Assembly: GCA_016212295.1 (NCBI GenBank)
Contig: JACRGO010000099.1
Coordinates: forward strand, 1 to 12,884
Origin: Nitrospinota bacterium
GTDB taxonomy: Bacteria; Nitrospinota; Nitrospinia; JACRGO01
DNA length: 12,884 bases
Direction: 5' to 3'
This document shows, piece after piece, positions 3,588 through 12,558 of the stretch. Made by a program: the position numbers and the translations under genes. The first letter of the stretch is position 1; each line of letters begins with the position of its first letter. The notes below the pieces were generated by a model. The model did not search any database and was not told the DNA's origin. It saw only the letters and a program-made list of their open reading frames with translations.

Positions 3588-4334
3588 GTGGAATCAATGT
3601 CATCCCTTTTTATTGTAGGTATTGCCTTCCAGATATGGATGGTGGTTGATTGTATCAAGAGAAAAGAGAGTTTTTTTTGGATAGCGGTGATCCTGCTTTT
3701 CGGGCCCATCGGCGCCATTGTATATCTGGTCGGCGTCAAGCTGGCGGGCGTGAAGGTGCGGGCCAAATTGAACTTCAAGCCTAATGGGTCGGCCAGAAAC
3801 GCGGAGATAGACAGGCTGGAGGAACTGGTCAAGCTGCACGGAAAGGCATTTCACCATAAGGAGCTGGGCTTGAAATACCTTTACGCCGGCGACCTAAGCA
3901 ACGCGGAACTGCACCTTTCCCAAGCCGTTGAAAAAGACGAGGAACTGCTGGACGCGCATTACGCTTTGTCCAAATCCCTTTACGGGCAGGGGAAGTATCT
4001 TGAGTCCGCCCACGCCCTGGAGGTGCTGACCGCCAAGGACAAGAAATATGATTACGGCAACGCGCTTCTCGGCCTGGCTGAAAGCTACCGGATGGCTGGA
4101 ATGGAGGACAAGGCCATGGAGGCTTACAAGGCGGTGGTGGCGTCTTATTCCTTCTTCAAGGCATATCATGAATACGCCATGCTGCTTAAAAAGGCCGGAC
4201 GCCTGGAAGAGGCCCTGAAAATGATGGAAAACATAAACACGAACGCGGAAGCCTTGCCGGAATATAAATACCAAAAGGAAAAGATTTGGATCGACAGCGC
4301 CCAGAAATTCATTAAGAGGTATGGGACACGGTAA
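3588..4334 (+). CDS. Membrane-anchored TPR protein with PLDc_N-like N-terminus
   Basis: The product is 248 residues and starts at a GTG with a well-placed AGGAG. Residues 1-50 form two hydrophobic segments (about 5-20 and 29-49) separated by DCIKRKES; the W-x-x-x-D-C ... FGPIGAIVYL pattern resembles the phospholipase D-nuclease N-terminal membrane domain (PLDc_N), without any PLD catalytic domain following. Residues about 75-225 are helical tetratricopeptide-like repeats, for example 91-117 (LGLKYLYAGDLSNAELHL), 123-147, 158-185 and 192-214. It probably acts as a membrane-tethered scaffold; no enzymatic motif is seen. It heads a plus-strand run with a second TPR gene and a glycosyltransferase, suggesting a shared envelope role by inference only. 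Its stop codon directly abuts a heptad array. Confidence 0.8.
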   Translation: MESMSSLFIVGIAFQIWMVVDCIKRKESFFWIAVILLFGPIGAIVYLVGVKLAGVKVRAKLNFKPNGSARNAEIDRLEELVKLHGKAFHHKELGLKYLYAGDLSNAELHLSQAVEKDEELLDAHYALSKSLYGQGKYLESAHALEVLTAKDKKYDYGNALLGLAESYRMAGMEDKAMEAYKAVVASYSFFKAYHEYAMLLKKAGRLEEALKMMENINTNAEALPEYKYQKEKIWIDSAQKFIKRYGTR

Positions 4335-4375
4335 AATAAGAAATTACAAATTACAAATAAACTCAAAATCCCAAT
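4334..4375. repeat. 7-nt-period array between the two TPR genes
   Basis: Six consecutive heptads can be read: AAATAAG, AAATTAC, AAATTAC, AAATAAA, CTCAAAA, TCCCAAT. The array begins on the last base of the upstream stop codon TAA (4332-4334) and ends 13 nt before the next start codon, filling nearly the whole gap. It leaves no visible Shine-Dalgarno sequence for the next gene. Confidence 0.7.
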
Positions 4376-7811: not shown

Positions 7812-8405
7812 CTATAACCCAAACAAATGAGTAAAGCCGAGGAACGCCAGGGACATTATCCCGGCTGTTATGAATATAATCGGGGTCCCCTTGAGAATCT
7901 CAGGGATCGGCGCCATGTCTATCCTCTCCCTTATCCCCGCGAAGAGGACAATGGACAGGGTGTAGCCCGCGGCCACGCCGATGGTGTAAATAATGGATGT
8001 TAAAAAGCCGAGCTTATAGTCTATGATGAGGATCGCCACGCCGAGGACCGCGCAGTTGGTGGTGATCAAGGGAAGATATATGCCAAGGGCGTTATAGAGC
8101 GCGGGCGAGGTCTTTTTTATATACATCTCCACCAATTGGACAAGGGTCGCGATAACGAGGATAAAAGACGCGGTCCGCAGGAATTCTATCTTCAAGGGAA
8201 ACAGGAAGAAATACCATATAGCCCAGGACACGGCGGACGCCAGGGTCATGACGAAAATAACCGCCATGCCCATGCTCAAGGAGACCTCTATTTTGTTGGA
8301 CACCCCGAAGAACGAGCAAAGGGCGAGGAACCGTATCAATACGATATTGTTCACAAGGATAGCGCTCAGCGCTATCATGTACCATGTCATTTCGTTGTCT
8401 ATCAT
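7812..8405 (-). CDS. rnfA: Rnf complex subunit RnfA
   Basis: RnfA is an integral membrane subunit with six helices that pairs with RnfE. The product is 197 residues from the ATG at 8405. The second ATG (8390, protein starting MTWYMIALSAILVNN) aligns better with the family start and puts the conserved cysteine at 25, so 8390 may be the true start. Conserved blocks are LVNNIVLIRFLALCSFFGVSNK (18-39), containing Cys30, and LPLITTNCAVLGVAIL (111-126), containing Cys118. Together with the RnfE pair, these cysteines are known to bind an Fe-S cluster within the membrane. AGIRERIDMAPIP is also family-typical. No Shine-Dalgarno is visible before either start, because a heptad array ends 5 nt from 8405. 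Confidence 0.95.
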   Translation of the reverse strand: MIDNEMTWYMIALSAILVNNIVLIRFLALCSFFGVSNKIEVSLSMGMAVIFVMTLASAVSWAIWYFFLFPLKIEFLRTASFILVIATLVQLVEMYIKKTSPALYNALGIYLPLITTNCAVLGVAILIIDYKLGFLTSIIYTIGVAAGYTLSIVLFAGIRERIDMAPIPEILKGTPIIFITAGIMSLAFLGFTHLFGL

Positions 8406-8409
8406 AGCA

Positions 8410-8512
8410 GCGTATAGGGTTCAGGGGTTAGCGATTAGCGTATAGCGGTTAGCGGTTAGGGATTAGCGGTTCCTCTCCCCCTAATCGCTATCCGCCAATC
8501 GCTATACGCTAA
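8410..8512. repeat. Inverted heptad arrays downstream of the four-helix-bundle gene
   Basis: The first block, 8410-8469, reads as continuous heptads GCGTATA, GGGTTCA, GGGGTTA, GCGATTA, GCGTATA, GCGGTTA, GCGGTTA, GGGATTA, then GCGG. The second block, 8481-8512, reads CTAATCG, CTATCCG, CCAATCG, CTATACG, CTAA, the opposite sense of the same unit. A linker TTCCTCTCCCC-like stretch separates them. The arms can pair over about 30 nt to give a long hairpin in the rnf transcript between the inserted gene and rnfA. The array ends 5 nt before the rnfA ATG on one side and touches the four-helix-bundle stop codon on the other. Confidence 0.85.
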
Positions 8513-8872
8513 TTACGTTTTAGTGAGTTTGGAAATGTAAGTTGACAATAATTTCATCACTTCCTGGTCAAGATTGTAAGCGGTTTTAAATATTTCACTT
8601 TTACAATAACCTAAATCAAAACTCAATTGGAGCTGGGTTTCAAGTTCAGCGGCGGAACCCATGGCTATTTTCAAGAACTGAATATATTCTTTTGTGCCTC
8701 GCATATAACCTTCCGCAATGTTGGAAGGAATTGAAACCGCGCATCTCCTGATTTGAGAAGTAAGGGAATACAATTCTTCTTTTGGAAATAAAGAGGTCAA
8801 CTCATATATCAGCTTAGTTAATTCATAACTTTTTTTATAAGCAATAAGTTCCTTATAAGACTTTATCTTCAC
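8513..8872 (-). CDS. Four-helix-bundle protein (23S rRNA intervening-sequence-protein family)
   Basis: The product is 119 residues, starting at GTG (8870-8872). It matches the S23/IVP four-helix-bundle family: SYKELIAYKKSYELTKLIYE (5-24), FPKEELYSLTSQIRRCAVSI (29-48), PSNIAEGYMRGTKEYIQFL (49-67) and ELETQLQLSFDLGY (76-89). Members are encoded in some 23S rRNA intervening sequences and elsewhere in genomes, and the Avd accessory proteins of diversity-generating retroelements share this fold; a molecular function for the stand-alone members is not established. The gene is markedly more AT-rich than its rnf neighbours and is bounded exactly by heptad arrays that supply the purine-rich GGGAGAGG ribosome binding site and abut the stop. 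It splits rnfE from rnfA, which are normally adjacent, so it is probably an insertion. Confidence 0.9.
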   Translation of the reverse strand: MKIKSYKELIAYKKSYELTKLIYELTSLFPKEELYSLTSQIRRCAVSIPSNIAEGYMRGTKEYIQFLKIAMGSAAELETQLQLSFDLGYCKSEIFKTAYNLDQEVMKLLSTYISKLTKT

Positions 8873-8875
8873 TTC

Positions 8876-8938
8876 CTCTCCCCTATTCGCTATCCGCTAT
8901 CCCCTCTCCCCTAATCGCTATTCGCTGATCGCTAACCC
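8876..8938. repeat. Nine-unit heptad array upstream of the four-helix-bundle gene
   Basis: The plus strand reads nine uninterrupted heptads: CTCTCCC, CTATTCG, CTATCCG, CTATCCC, CTCTCCC, CTAATCG, CTATTCG, CTGATCG, CTAACCC. It is in direct orientation with the block at 8481-8512 on the other side of the gene. The last unit contains the rnfE stop codon (8932-8934), and the first unit lies 3 nt from the GTG start of the four-helix-bundle gene. Confidence 0.85.
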
Positions 8939-9540
8939 CTTTTCAGCGCCCACCTCACCCCGGCTATCATGAACCCGATCACTATAAACGCGCCAGGGGG
9001 CATTATAAAGACAAGGGCGGGCTGAAAATTCATGGAGGTGGATATATTGAACAATTCCCTGTTGAAGAATGACAGGGTCCCGTTTCCTATCAGTTCCCTG
9101 ATAGCGCCAAGCGTGGTTATGGTGAGGGTGAACCCCAGCCCCATGCCAAGGCCGTCAAGAGTTGAAGCGAAAACGGAATTCTTGTACGCGAATGCCTCGG
9201 CCCTGGCCAGGATTATGCAATTAACCACTATAAGAGGTATGAATATCCCGAGAGAGGCGTATAATTCCACCACATACGCGTGCATCACGTAGTCGACAAT
9301 CGTCACAAAGGTCGAGATGATCACTATGAAGATGGGGAGCCTTATGGAATCCGGGGTATATTTCCTCATCATGGACACCAGGATATTGGAGGCGACAAGA
9401 ACAAAGGTCGTGGCCACGCCCATACCGAACCCGTCGTTCATCGAGCTCCCTGTCGCCAGCGCCGGACACAGCCCTATGATGAGTACGAGGACCGGATTTT
9501 CCTTAAGGATGCCGTTTGTGAAGGTTTTAGTGTAATCCAT
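8932..9540 (-). CDS. rnfE: Rnf complex subunit RnfE
   Basis: RnfE is an integral membrane subunit of 202 residues that pairs with RnfA. The N-terminus NGILKENPVLVLIIGLCPALATG (9-31) carries conserved Cys25, and IPLIVVNCIILARAEAFAYKN (101-121) carries Cys108; with RnfA these bind the intramembrane Fe-S cluster. GLGMGLGFTLTITTLGAIRELIGNGTL is also family-typical. Six hydrophobic segments can be traced. The start at 9540 has TAGGA about 3 nt upstream on the minus strand. The last codons and the stop (TAG, 8932-8934) fall in a heptad array, so the C-terminal ALKRG end may have been trimmed or capped by it. The length is near the lower end of the family. Confidence 0.96.
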   Translation of the reverse strand: MDYTKTFTNGILKENPVLVLIIGLCPALATGSSMNDGFGMGVATTFVLVASNILVSMMRKYTPDSIRLPIFIVIISTFVTIVDYVMHAYVVELYASLGIFIPLIVVNCIILARAEAFAYKNSVFASTLDGLGMGLGFTLTITTLGAIRELIGNGTLSFFNRELFNISTSMNFQPALVFIMPPGAFIVIGFMIAGVRWALKRG

Positions 9541-9554
9541 ATTCCTACTATTTG

Positions 9555-9645
9555 GTCATTAGTCAATAGTCATTGGTCATTAGTCATTGGTCATTGGGGT
9601 GGAACGGTTTCCTGTTTACCATTGACCAATGACAAATGACTACTT
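9555..9645. repeat. Inverted heptad arrays between rnfG and rnfE
   Basis: The block 9555-9596 reads GTCATTA, GTCAATA, GTCATTG, GTCATTA, GTCATTG, GTCATTG. The block 9618-9645 reads ACCATTG, ACCAATG, ACAAATG, ACTACTT, the opposite sense of the same unit. A 21-nt spacer separates them. The arms can pair over roughly 20-25 nt, so the rnf transcript should carry a hairpin here. The rnfG stop codon (9640-9642) lies in the last unit. There is no gene in the gap. Confidence 0.85.
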
Positions 9646-11211: not shown

Positions 11212-12558
11212 TCAAGCCTTTTTCTTTTTTTTGTGTATCTCCGACTTCAGGCCCCGTATGAACTGGACCAGGGGACGGTGCGCCGGGCACGTATATGAGC
11301 ATATACCGCATTCTATGCAGTCCATTAGGTTCCACGAATGCGCAGCATCAACCATTCCCCGCTCGTAGTATATGCCGTACAGGTTCGGGGTTATGCCCAT
11401 TGGACAGCTATCAATGCACCTCCCGCAGCGGATGCAGGCTAGATAATCGCTGTCCGCCCTTGCCGAACCCTTTGAAAACACCAGTATAGCGGAGGTCCCT
11501 TTTATCACCGGGACCTTCAAGGTATGCTGGGCGGTTCCCATCATGGGGCCGCCGACTATGACCTTTTCCGGCTCTCCGGCGAACCCTCCGCAGTTTTGAA
11601 TCATGAAATCGAGGCTCGTCCCTATCCGCGCCAGGAGATTTTTTGGCTCCTTCACGCCGCTCCCGGTCACGGTAACGACCCTCTCGATCAGTGGCCTGCC
11701 GTGCCTGGCCGCGTTATAAATGGCGTGGGCTGTCCCGACATTGTTCACCACCACGCCCACATCCATTGGCAGGCCGCCTGACGGGATTTCCCTGTTCACG
11801 ATGGATTTTATGAGCTGTTTTTCAGCGCCTTGAGGATATTTAATGTCAAGAGGCGCAACCTCGATATCCATATTTTGGGATTTAAGATTTGAGATTTGAG
11901 ATTTGAGGATGGATATTGCGTCCGGCTTGTTTTTCTCTATGCCGATAAATGCCTTCCTGACCGAAAGGGCCTTCATGATGATTTTCAGCCCCTCGATTAT
12001 CTCCGAGGGCTTCTCAACCATCAGCCTGTGGTCGGACGTAATAAAGGGCTCGCATTCCGCGCCGTTCAGTATAACGTATTCGATCTTCTTGTCCTTGGGC
12101 GGCGACAGCTTTACATGGGTCGGGAACTGCGCGCCTCCCAGGCCGACTATGCCTGCGTTAAGCACAATCGCCCGCAATTTTTCAGGATCAATGTACAAGT
12201 AATCCCCGGTCCCGGCTATACCGTCAGCCCATTCGTCCTTGCCGTCGGATTCAATGGTTATCGCCGGAACATTATTTCCTGACGGGTGCGGCTGGGGCGA
12301 GATATCCACCACCTTGCCGGATATGGAGGCATGGACCGTCGAGGTGATAAAGGATTTTCCCTCTCCGATCTTTTGCCCCTTTTTCACCAGGTCGCCTGAC
12401 TTTACCAAGGGCTCGCAGATCGCCCCTGTATGCTGGCTCAGTGGTATAACCACCTTGCCCGGCAGGGGGCAGGTCTGGGTCGGGAGACCGTTTGTTCCAT
12501 CTTTTTCCTCAGGCAGATGGACCCCTCCCCTGAAGGCTATTTTCTGGAATAAGGACAT
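11212..12558 (-). CDS. rnfC: Rnf complex subunit RnfC (NADH/FMN and Fe-S subunit)
   Basis: RnfC is the cytoplasmic peripheral subunit that reacts with NAD(H). It has 448 residues. It opens with FRGGVHLPEEKDGT (9-22), followed by a lipoyl-like region about 33-103 (VVIPLSQHTGA; VHASISGKVVDI). The FMN/NAD-binding Rossmann-like region includes IVGLGGAQFPTHVKL (137-151) and VILNGAECEPFITSDHRLM (162-180), then YPQGAEKQLI (241-250). Two [4Fe-4S] motifs follow: Cys375/378/381/385-Pro and Cys414/417/420/424-Pro. The C-terminus is Lys-rich and lacks the long Ala/Lys tail of E. coli RsxC. Residues 218-229 are encoded by an in-frame heptad repeat in a loop between conserved blocks. It is the first gene of the operon, with a candidate promoter about 100 nt upstream. 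Confidence 0.96.
   Translation of the reverse strand: MSLFQKIAFRGGVHLPEEKDGTNGLPTQTCPLPGKVVIPLSQHTGAICEPLVKSGDLVKKGQKIGEGKSFITSTVHASISGKVVDISPQPHPSGNNVPAITIESDGKDEWADGIAGTGDYLYIDPEKLRAIVLNAGIVGLGGAQFPTHVKLSPPKDKKIEYVILNGAECEPFITSDHRLMVEKPSEIIEGLKIIMKALSVRKAFIGIEKNKPDAISILKSQISNLKSQNMDIEVAPLDIKYPQGAEKQLIKSIVNREIPSGGLPMDVGVVVNNVGTAHAIYNAARHGRPLIERVVTVTGSGVKEPKNLLARIGTSLDFMIQNCGGFAGEPEKVIVGGPMMGTAQHTLKVPVIKGTSAILVFSKGSARADSDYLACIRCGRCIDSCPMGITPNLYGIYYERGMVDAAHSWNLMDCIECGICSYTCPAHRPLVQFIRGLKSEIHKKKKKA
11872..11906. repeat. In-frame heptad array inside rnfC
   Basis: The plus strand reads ATTTTGG, GATTTAA, GATTTGA, GATTTGA, GATTTGA (35 nt). On the coding strand it supplies residues 218-229, read as LKSQISNLKSQN, so a 7-nt DNA period produces a 7-residue protein period. 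The frame stays open across it and the flanking conserved blocks are intact. Confidence 0.85.

Follow-up and report, generated by a model that had tools for sequence, protein, structure and literature searches.

The closest known entity to the element described here is the intervening sequence (IVS) of bacterial ribosomal RNA (rRNA) genes. The IVS in helix 45 of Coxiella burnetii is 428 nt long and holds an S23p open reading frame (ORF) in the loop of an inverted repeat, and right before this ORF lie tandem heptamers whose number varies among strains (PMC4990558). Earlier authors proposed that rRNA IVSs are mobile elements or remnants of them and that the ORF is needed for mobility (PMC4990558), and the rRNA insertions of Candidate Phyla Radiation (CPR) bacteria also contain ORFs of this S23p/IVP family (PMC11270868). 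The present element lies in a 12,884-nt stretch of DNA (hereafter the window), a contig of a 3.74-Mb genome whose nearest named relatives are Nitrospinota metagenome-assembled genomes. An IVP gene framed by arrays of 7-nt repeats (heptads) forms a cassette of 529 nt between rnfE and rnfA, and this cassette is probably a copy of a widespread IVS-type minimal mobile element, in which arrays and gene move as one unit.

Heptameric intergenic repeats are familiar from cyanobacteria as short tandemly repeated repetitive (STRR) sequences. The accessible parts of three reports describe further examples, namely GGGAATC in Xanthomonas along with heptameric repeats in Nostoc (PMC4692102), TAACTGA in Beggiatoaceae (PMC4679880), and GGGACCG and MTYCTGA in Geobacter (PMC2700814). 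In these parts, the Xanthomonas study found no general association of the repeats with mobile elements (PMC4692102), and none of the three reports links heptameric repeats to S23p/IVP; subscription journals were mostly outside the coverage, and earlier reports may exist. The preliminary description of the window regarded a link between this protein family and heptad arrays as new. The family-wide link passes the tests given below, while heptamers before an S23p ORF had already been reported for the Coxiella IVS (PMC4990558).

Anatomy of the window cassette

The IVP gene (8513..8872, minus strand) has a GTG start and encodes 119 aa. On its 5' side, array U (8873..8940, minus strand), recognized by array detection and flank alignment, reads in gene sense TAGCGAT CAGCGAA TAGCGAT TAGGGGAGAGG GGATAGCGGATAGCGAATAGGGGAGAGG. 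Its TAGCGNN units begin on the rnfE stop codon and provide a purine-rich stretch resembling a Shine-Dalgarno (SD) sequence. Two arrays follow the gene: D1 (8472..8512, minus strand), with terminal TAGCGATTAGGGGGAGAGG, abuts the IVP stop codon and is direct relative to U (alignment score 24), and D2 (8406..8471, plus strand) is inverted relative to both U (score 29) and D1 (D1/D2 hairpin score 20). Approximate limits of the heptad arrays at the cassette are 8409-8471, 8472-8513 and 8879-8940. The preliminary description had reported arrays at both ends in direct orientation across the gene; the framing was confirmed and D1 is indeed direct, whereas D2 is inverted, and the symmetry that matters is the inverted one. 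With D2 present, the IVP gene sits between inverted arrays, U pairing with D2 over about 45 nt with the gene inside the loop (inverted score 29 versus direct score 24). U and D1, which flank the gene as direct copies, would permit deletion of the gene by recombination, yielding a gene-less hairpin like the inverted heptad pair of the TTGGTCA/TTAGTCA type between rnfG and rnfE (9552..9640, no strand assigned). The unit of this pair is the same as in the arrays of another IVP copy of the genome (L006), and the pair is a candidate IVP-less derivative.

The rnf operon runs on the minus strand in the order rnfC-D-G-E-A-B according to Pfam, and the cassette parts rnfE upstream (8932..9540, minus strand) from rnfA downstream (7812..8405, minus strand), both assigned by Pfam and by relatives. 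In the relatives, rnfE and rnfA are adjacent with no gene in between; in G015 and G019 the two adjoin directly, and in G011 (locus L040) the junction holds a gene-less heptad hairpin of another type (GTTTAGA). The composition of the IVP gene is distinct, as had been noted, with 34% GC and a GC content at third codon positions (GC3) of 0.35 versus 50-57% GC for the rnf genes, the three of which that were measured have GC3 of 0.67-0.72. The idea that the target site templates the array unit, which came from GTTAGCGTATA at the G015 junction, was ruled out, since at unrelated loci the unit goes with the IVP lineage.

The protein belongs to PF05635 (23S rRNA intervening-sequence protein, IVP/S23p; E 2.7e-36, 124 bits versus a cut-off of 33.8) and matches TIGR02436 (E 1.4e-34, 118.6 bits versus a cut-off of 24). 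Its AlphaFold (AF2) model is a confident four-helix bundle (pLDDT 96.4), and the top PDB match is 2GSC (XCC0516) with 46% identity. Template-modelling (TM) scores of the model are 0.88-0.93 to 2GSC and 0.77-0.80 to 2RLD, and a weaker structural match is to Avd of diversity-generating retroelements (4DWL, 8UB7; TM about 0.8). By sequence, the protein scores below the cut-offs of the Avd profile (23.4 bits versus 80) and the bAvd profile (20.9 versus 40). S47, N51, E54, G55, S73 and E76 are invariant across IVP alignments of 41 and 53 members. Between IVP copies at different loci dN/dS is about 0.1, that is, the gene is under purifying selection, and therefore the IVP matters to the lineages that move. 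It is the sole protein of the cassette, which encodes no recognized transposase or recombinase, and carriage by phages is not supported, as a phage collection gave no match to the window IVP. An IVP-like domain also occurs in a 242-aa open frame lacking arrays (L018:1501-1713), possibly a domesticated or fused relative.

At lag 7 a strict detector returned six arrays in the window, whereas lags 4-6 and 8-13 gave none, and an Rfam scan of the window gave no match. Heptad arrays also lie at two more places of the window. One (11872-11914) is within the rnfC coding sequence, where it reads SILKSQISNLKSQ and may be an in-frame array insertion; the other, of AAATTAC units (4332-4361), is at the end of an ORF resembling tetratricopeptide-repeat (TPR) proteins (3588-4334).

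Arrays and IVP genes across genomes

The genome of the window holds 18 PF05635 matches. At loci of this genome, of its relatives, of other phyla and of cyanobacterial plasmids, a common plan of array U, IVP gene and reverse complement of U recurs with units that differ between loci. The association was measured on 99 non-redundant IVP genes from several phyla, with simple ORF calls, heuristic start codons and an inverted-flank score cut-off of 14 that was picked by eye and judged against controls. Inverted-repeat flanks scoring at least 14 were present in 80 of the 99 genes, and inverted or direct flanks in 87, so the arrays that had been anticipated at other copies of the family are there. 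Only 24 of 389 other genes of the same genome (6.2%) reached this score (Fisher p 4e-51), as did 7.9% of 38 control genes within the IVP loci and 5.6% of cross-locus pairings; these gene controls ruled out background arrays as the whole explanation of the flanks. With other copies bearing arrays and the gene not conserved at rnfE-rnfA, the mobile array-ORF-array cassette of the preliminary description is supported.

The flanks have a periodicity of mainly 7 and next of 8, and the inverted elements have a median length of 476 nt. Measured from the upstream stop codon, the median start of the elements is +1 nt, with 51 of 72 starts falling in the range -15..+30, and the inverted arm extends into the IVP stop or last codons in 34 of 91 cases. 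The upstream gene is co-directional for 73 of 80 IVP elements, compared with 157 of 222 adjacent gene pairs of this genome (p 1e-4). Short operon gaps together with selection against gene disruption could explain part of this placement. A role of the heptads as three-frame stop signals was unsupported for the upstream arm (27% versus 20% expected by shuffling). Three IVP elements (L199, L203, L205) lie in CRISPR operons of cyanobacterial plasmids, two between cas6 and cas4 and one between cas10/cmr2 and cmr3.

Array unit and IVP lineage are linked. Among 59 pairs of IVPs that are at least 60% identical and have non-homologous neighbours, 85% have arrays in common, and the same array was found in 16 of 18 independent pairs at this identity in which no gene was used twice. 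Sharing drops to 15% at 50-60% IVP identity and to 4-7% below that, and array-sharing pairs exist across phyla, one of them being L063 (Nitrospinota) and L172 (Nitrospirota). By itself, this linkage does not demonstrate that the IVP recognizes the array.

Arrays also occur apart from IVP genes. In 331 kb of this genome, the strict detector found 62 arrays at lag 7, while no other lag from 4 to 13 gave more than 8, and the shuffled control had none at lags 6-9. In 561 kb, 79 lag-7 arrays were counted, 12 of them near IVP genes. Sixty-seven arrays are not close to an IVP gene; 28 of them have an inverted partner within 150 nt, whereas random places gave 5. When these gene-less arrays were compared with the arrays of IVP elements resident in the genome, 67% matched, while sets of equal size taken from foreign genomes gave 7-22%. 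The genome further contains three TAGCG arrays that lack a gene and resemble those of the window. IVP-bearing Nitrospinota relatives have 15 arrays in about 158 kb sampled and IVP-free ones none in 337 kb sampled, a comparison that confounds clade with IVP content and is therefore correlational. Three IVP genomes outside Nitrospinota showed no array in 83 kb sampled, so arrays are no general background there.

Insertion and competing explanations

Filled and empty versions of one site give the clearest view of an insertion. Plasmid C of Trichormus variabilis (L207) and Scytonema NIES-4073 (L233) carry the element; two plasmids with 97% identity, from Aulosira laxa NIES-50 (L228) and Tolypothrix PCC 7601 (L229), are empty. 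Together with both arrays the inserted DNA amounts to 428 bp, and an exact 5-bp duplication, GTAAT, contains the upstream stop codon; since L207 and L233 share the insertion, this is one event seen in two comparisons. At the same site, plasmid E of Nostoc C052 (L230) has an array and a truncated IVP gene. Aulosira plasmid2 has a copy of the Trichormus element, 83% identical, at a locus unrelated to this one, and in Dolichospermum a different element is found again at an unrelated locus. Several Nostoc plasmids contain, without the IVP gene, a 235-bp stretch that lies upstream of such a gene at L297 (L297:915-1149).

Based on these comparisons, the following mechanism is proposed. The element, of about 430-530 bp, comprises an IVP gene, apparently devoid of its own promoter, between two short tandem arrays in inverted orientation, mostly of 7-mers and sometimes of 8-mers. 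Its insertion point would be the stop codon of a preceding gene or a position close to it, and it would generally be oriented like that gene, which would let host read-through transcribe the IVP gene while the upstream array would give the ribosome-binding stretch. Arrays and gene would travel as a single unit, and scattered gene-less arrays of the same genome would mostly be deletion or non-autonomous derivatives. The IVP, predicted to be a pentameric helical bundle by homology to solved relatives, is most likely the element's own array-recognizing factor. The window copy presumably moved likewise, with an IVP that would recognize the array and be needed for mobility.

Several observations weigh against this mechanism. 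A clean target duplication was seen in just one insertion event, which is thin evidence for the duplication length. In a second insertion (L208 versus L225) only ATG is exactly duplicated (TAATG versus TTATG; 3 exact bases or 4 of 5), and a third (L227 versus L208) lacks one base of a TTCTA duplication. For L204, L205, L203, L234 and L356 the IVP gene is missing in relatives but the junctions are altered or deleted, and clean duplications there were dropped as candidates. The empty site that the preliminary description proposed to look for in relatives exists, with exact ends, for a related element. For the window copy, neither a close empty site nor a target duplication is visible, and RnfE of its nearest relatives is about 84% identical. 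Of the 99 IVP copies, 12 have no flanks of either kind, inverted or direct, and the loci are mostly best-scoring matches per genome. Linkage alone could hold array and IVP gene together without recognition. A fold search with the IVP model returned no nuclease or recombinase fold, the nearest folds being IVP and Avd, and the Coxiella S23p ORF appears untranslated and decaying (PMC4990558).

The absence of a recognizable catalytic fold is in line with an element that is mobile but carries the IVP as mere cargo, an unrelated transposase in trans moving whatever lies between suitable inverted repeats, as for miniature inverted-repeat transposable elements (MITEs). The common gene-less inverted arrays and the 5-bp duplication, typical of transposase insertion, agree with this as well. 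However, the unit changes with IVP lineage across phyla, which is unexpected under a shared host transposase, the units are highly diverse whereas known transposases have fixed ends, and the IVP is under purifying selection. The cargo explanation is regarded as unlikely, if a serious contender.

Purifying selection would equally suit a regulatory module, in which an IVP bound to array RNA controls translation or stability in operons, with spread being incidental. In operons the arrays occupy intergenic positions, and they overlap with stop codons and SD stretches; moreover, the accessible parts of earlier reports interpret heptamer arrays as regulator binding sites (PMC4679880, PMC2700814). 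Yet presence differs among close relatives, the neighbours are arbitrary (rnf, cas and conjugation genes), and several IVPs with different units coexist in one genome, which makes regulation a rather improbable account of the module.

The preliminary description had also pointed to the fold shared with Avd and guessed at RNA-templated mobility. The shared fold stands, and the co-orientation of the elements with transcription would suit an Avd-like protein that works with a reverse transcriptase in trans. The guess itself is weakened: of 26 genomes with IVP genes, 12 showed no RVT_1 match, among them G103 with its 11 IVPs, in a test weakened by some genomes being incomplete drafts, and the sequence match to Avd models is far below cut-off. 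The proteins of the window operon gave no reverse-transcriptase match, and the genome of the window has one RVT_1 match, on another contig. A general requirement for reverse transcriptase in trans is unlikely, and RNA-templated insertion is given very little credence. Equally little credence is given to heptad arrays as independent simple repeats and hot spots receiving a passenger IVP gene, for which the excess of arrays over IVP genes in this genome and the IVP-less array of G011 at rnfE-rnfA might speak, but which is contradicted at the one clean empty site, where the arrays come in with the gene, and disfavoured by the sampled IVP-free relatives without arrays and by units that track IVP lineage.

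Comparison with known systems

A wider proposal is offered tentatively, somewhat short of an even chance: bacteria in general would harbour minimal autonomous transposable elements whose sole protein, a four-helix bundle of 120 residues, acts on its own heptad arrays; rRNA IVSs would be copies that landed in rRNA, and the heptameric repeats of cyanobacteria, Xanthomonas, Geobacter and others would be gene-less remains. If so, the origin of heptameric intergenic repeats and the function of S23p/IVP, both long-standing puzzles, would merge into one testable system, and DNA would be moved by a system that at about 450 bp is shorter than common insertion sequences and has one small helical protein of no known catalytic fold. 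It predicts that the gene of XCC0516, a solved IVP structure, lies in or near GGGAATC arrays of Xanthomonas campestris.

The known heptameric repeats resemble the present arrays in being 7-nt intergenic units near stop or start codons, often as inverted pairs, and MTYCTGA of Geobacter matches the unit of the Trichormus element (CTCCTGA/ATTCTGA). MITEs and the repetitive extragenic palindromes with their associated transposases (REP/RAYT) are similar in their short inverted repeats and in having many gene-less and few gene-bearing copies, but the ends of the present element are variable tandem arrays and its only protein is no known transposase. Avd (4DWL, 8UB7) has the same helical-bundle fold, whereas no linked reverse transcriptase was seen here and the IVP sequence stays below the Avd model cut-off. 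The nearest counterpart is the rRNA IVS, with an S23p/IVP ORF in an inverted-repeat loop, a length of about 430 nt and heptamers before the ORF. The window cassette likewise encloses its S23p ORF between inverted repeats, the U and D2 arms, at the rnfE-rnfA junction and not in an rRNA gene, and none of the 20 IVP loci with weak or atypical arrays that were checked was located in rRNA. In contrast to the rRNA IVS, the present element stands between protein genes, has arrays on both sides, occupies many sites in one genome and keeps its ORF intact under purifying selection.
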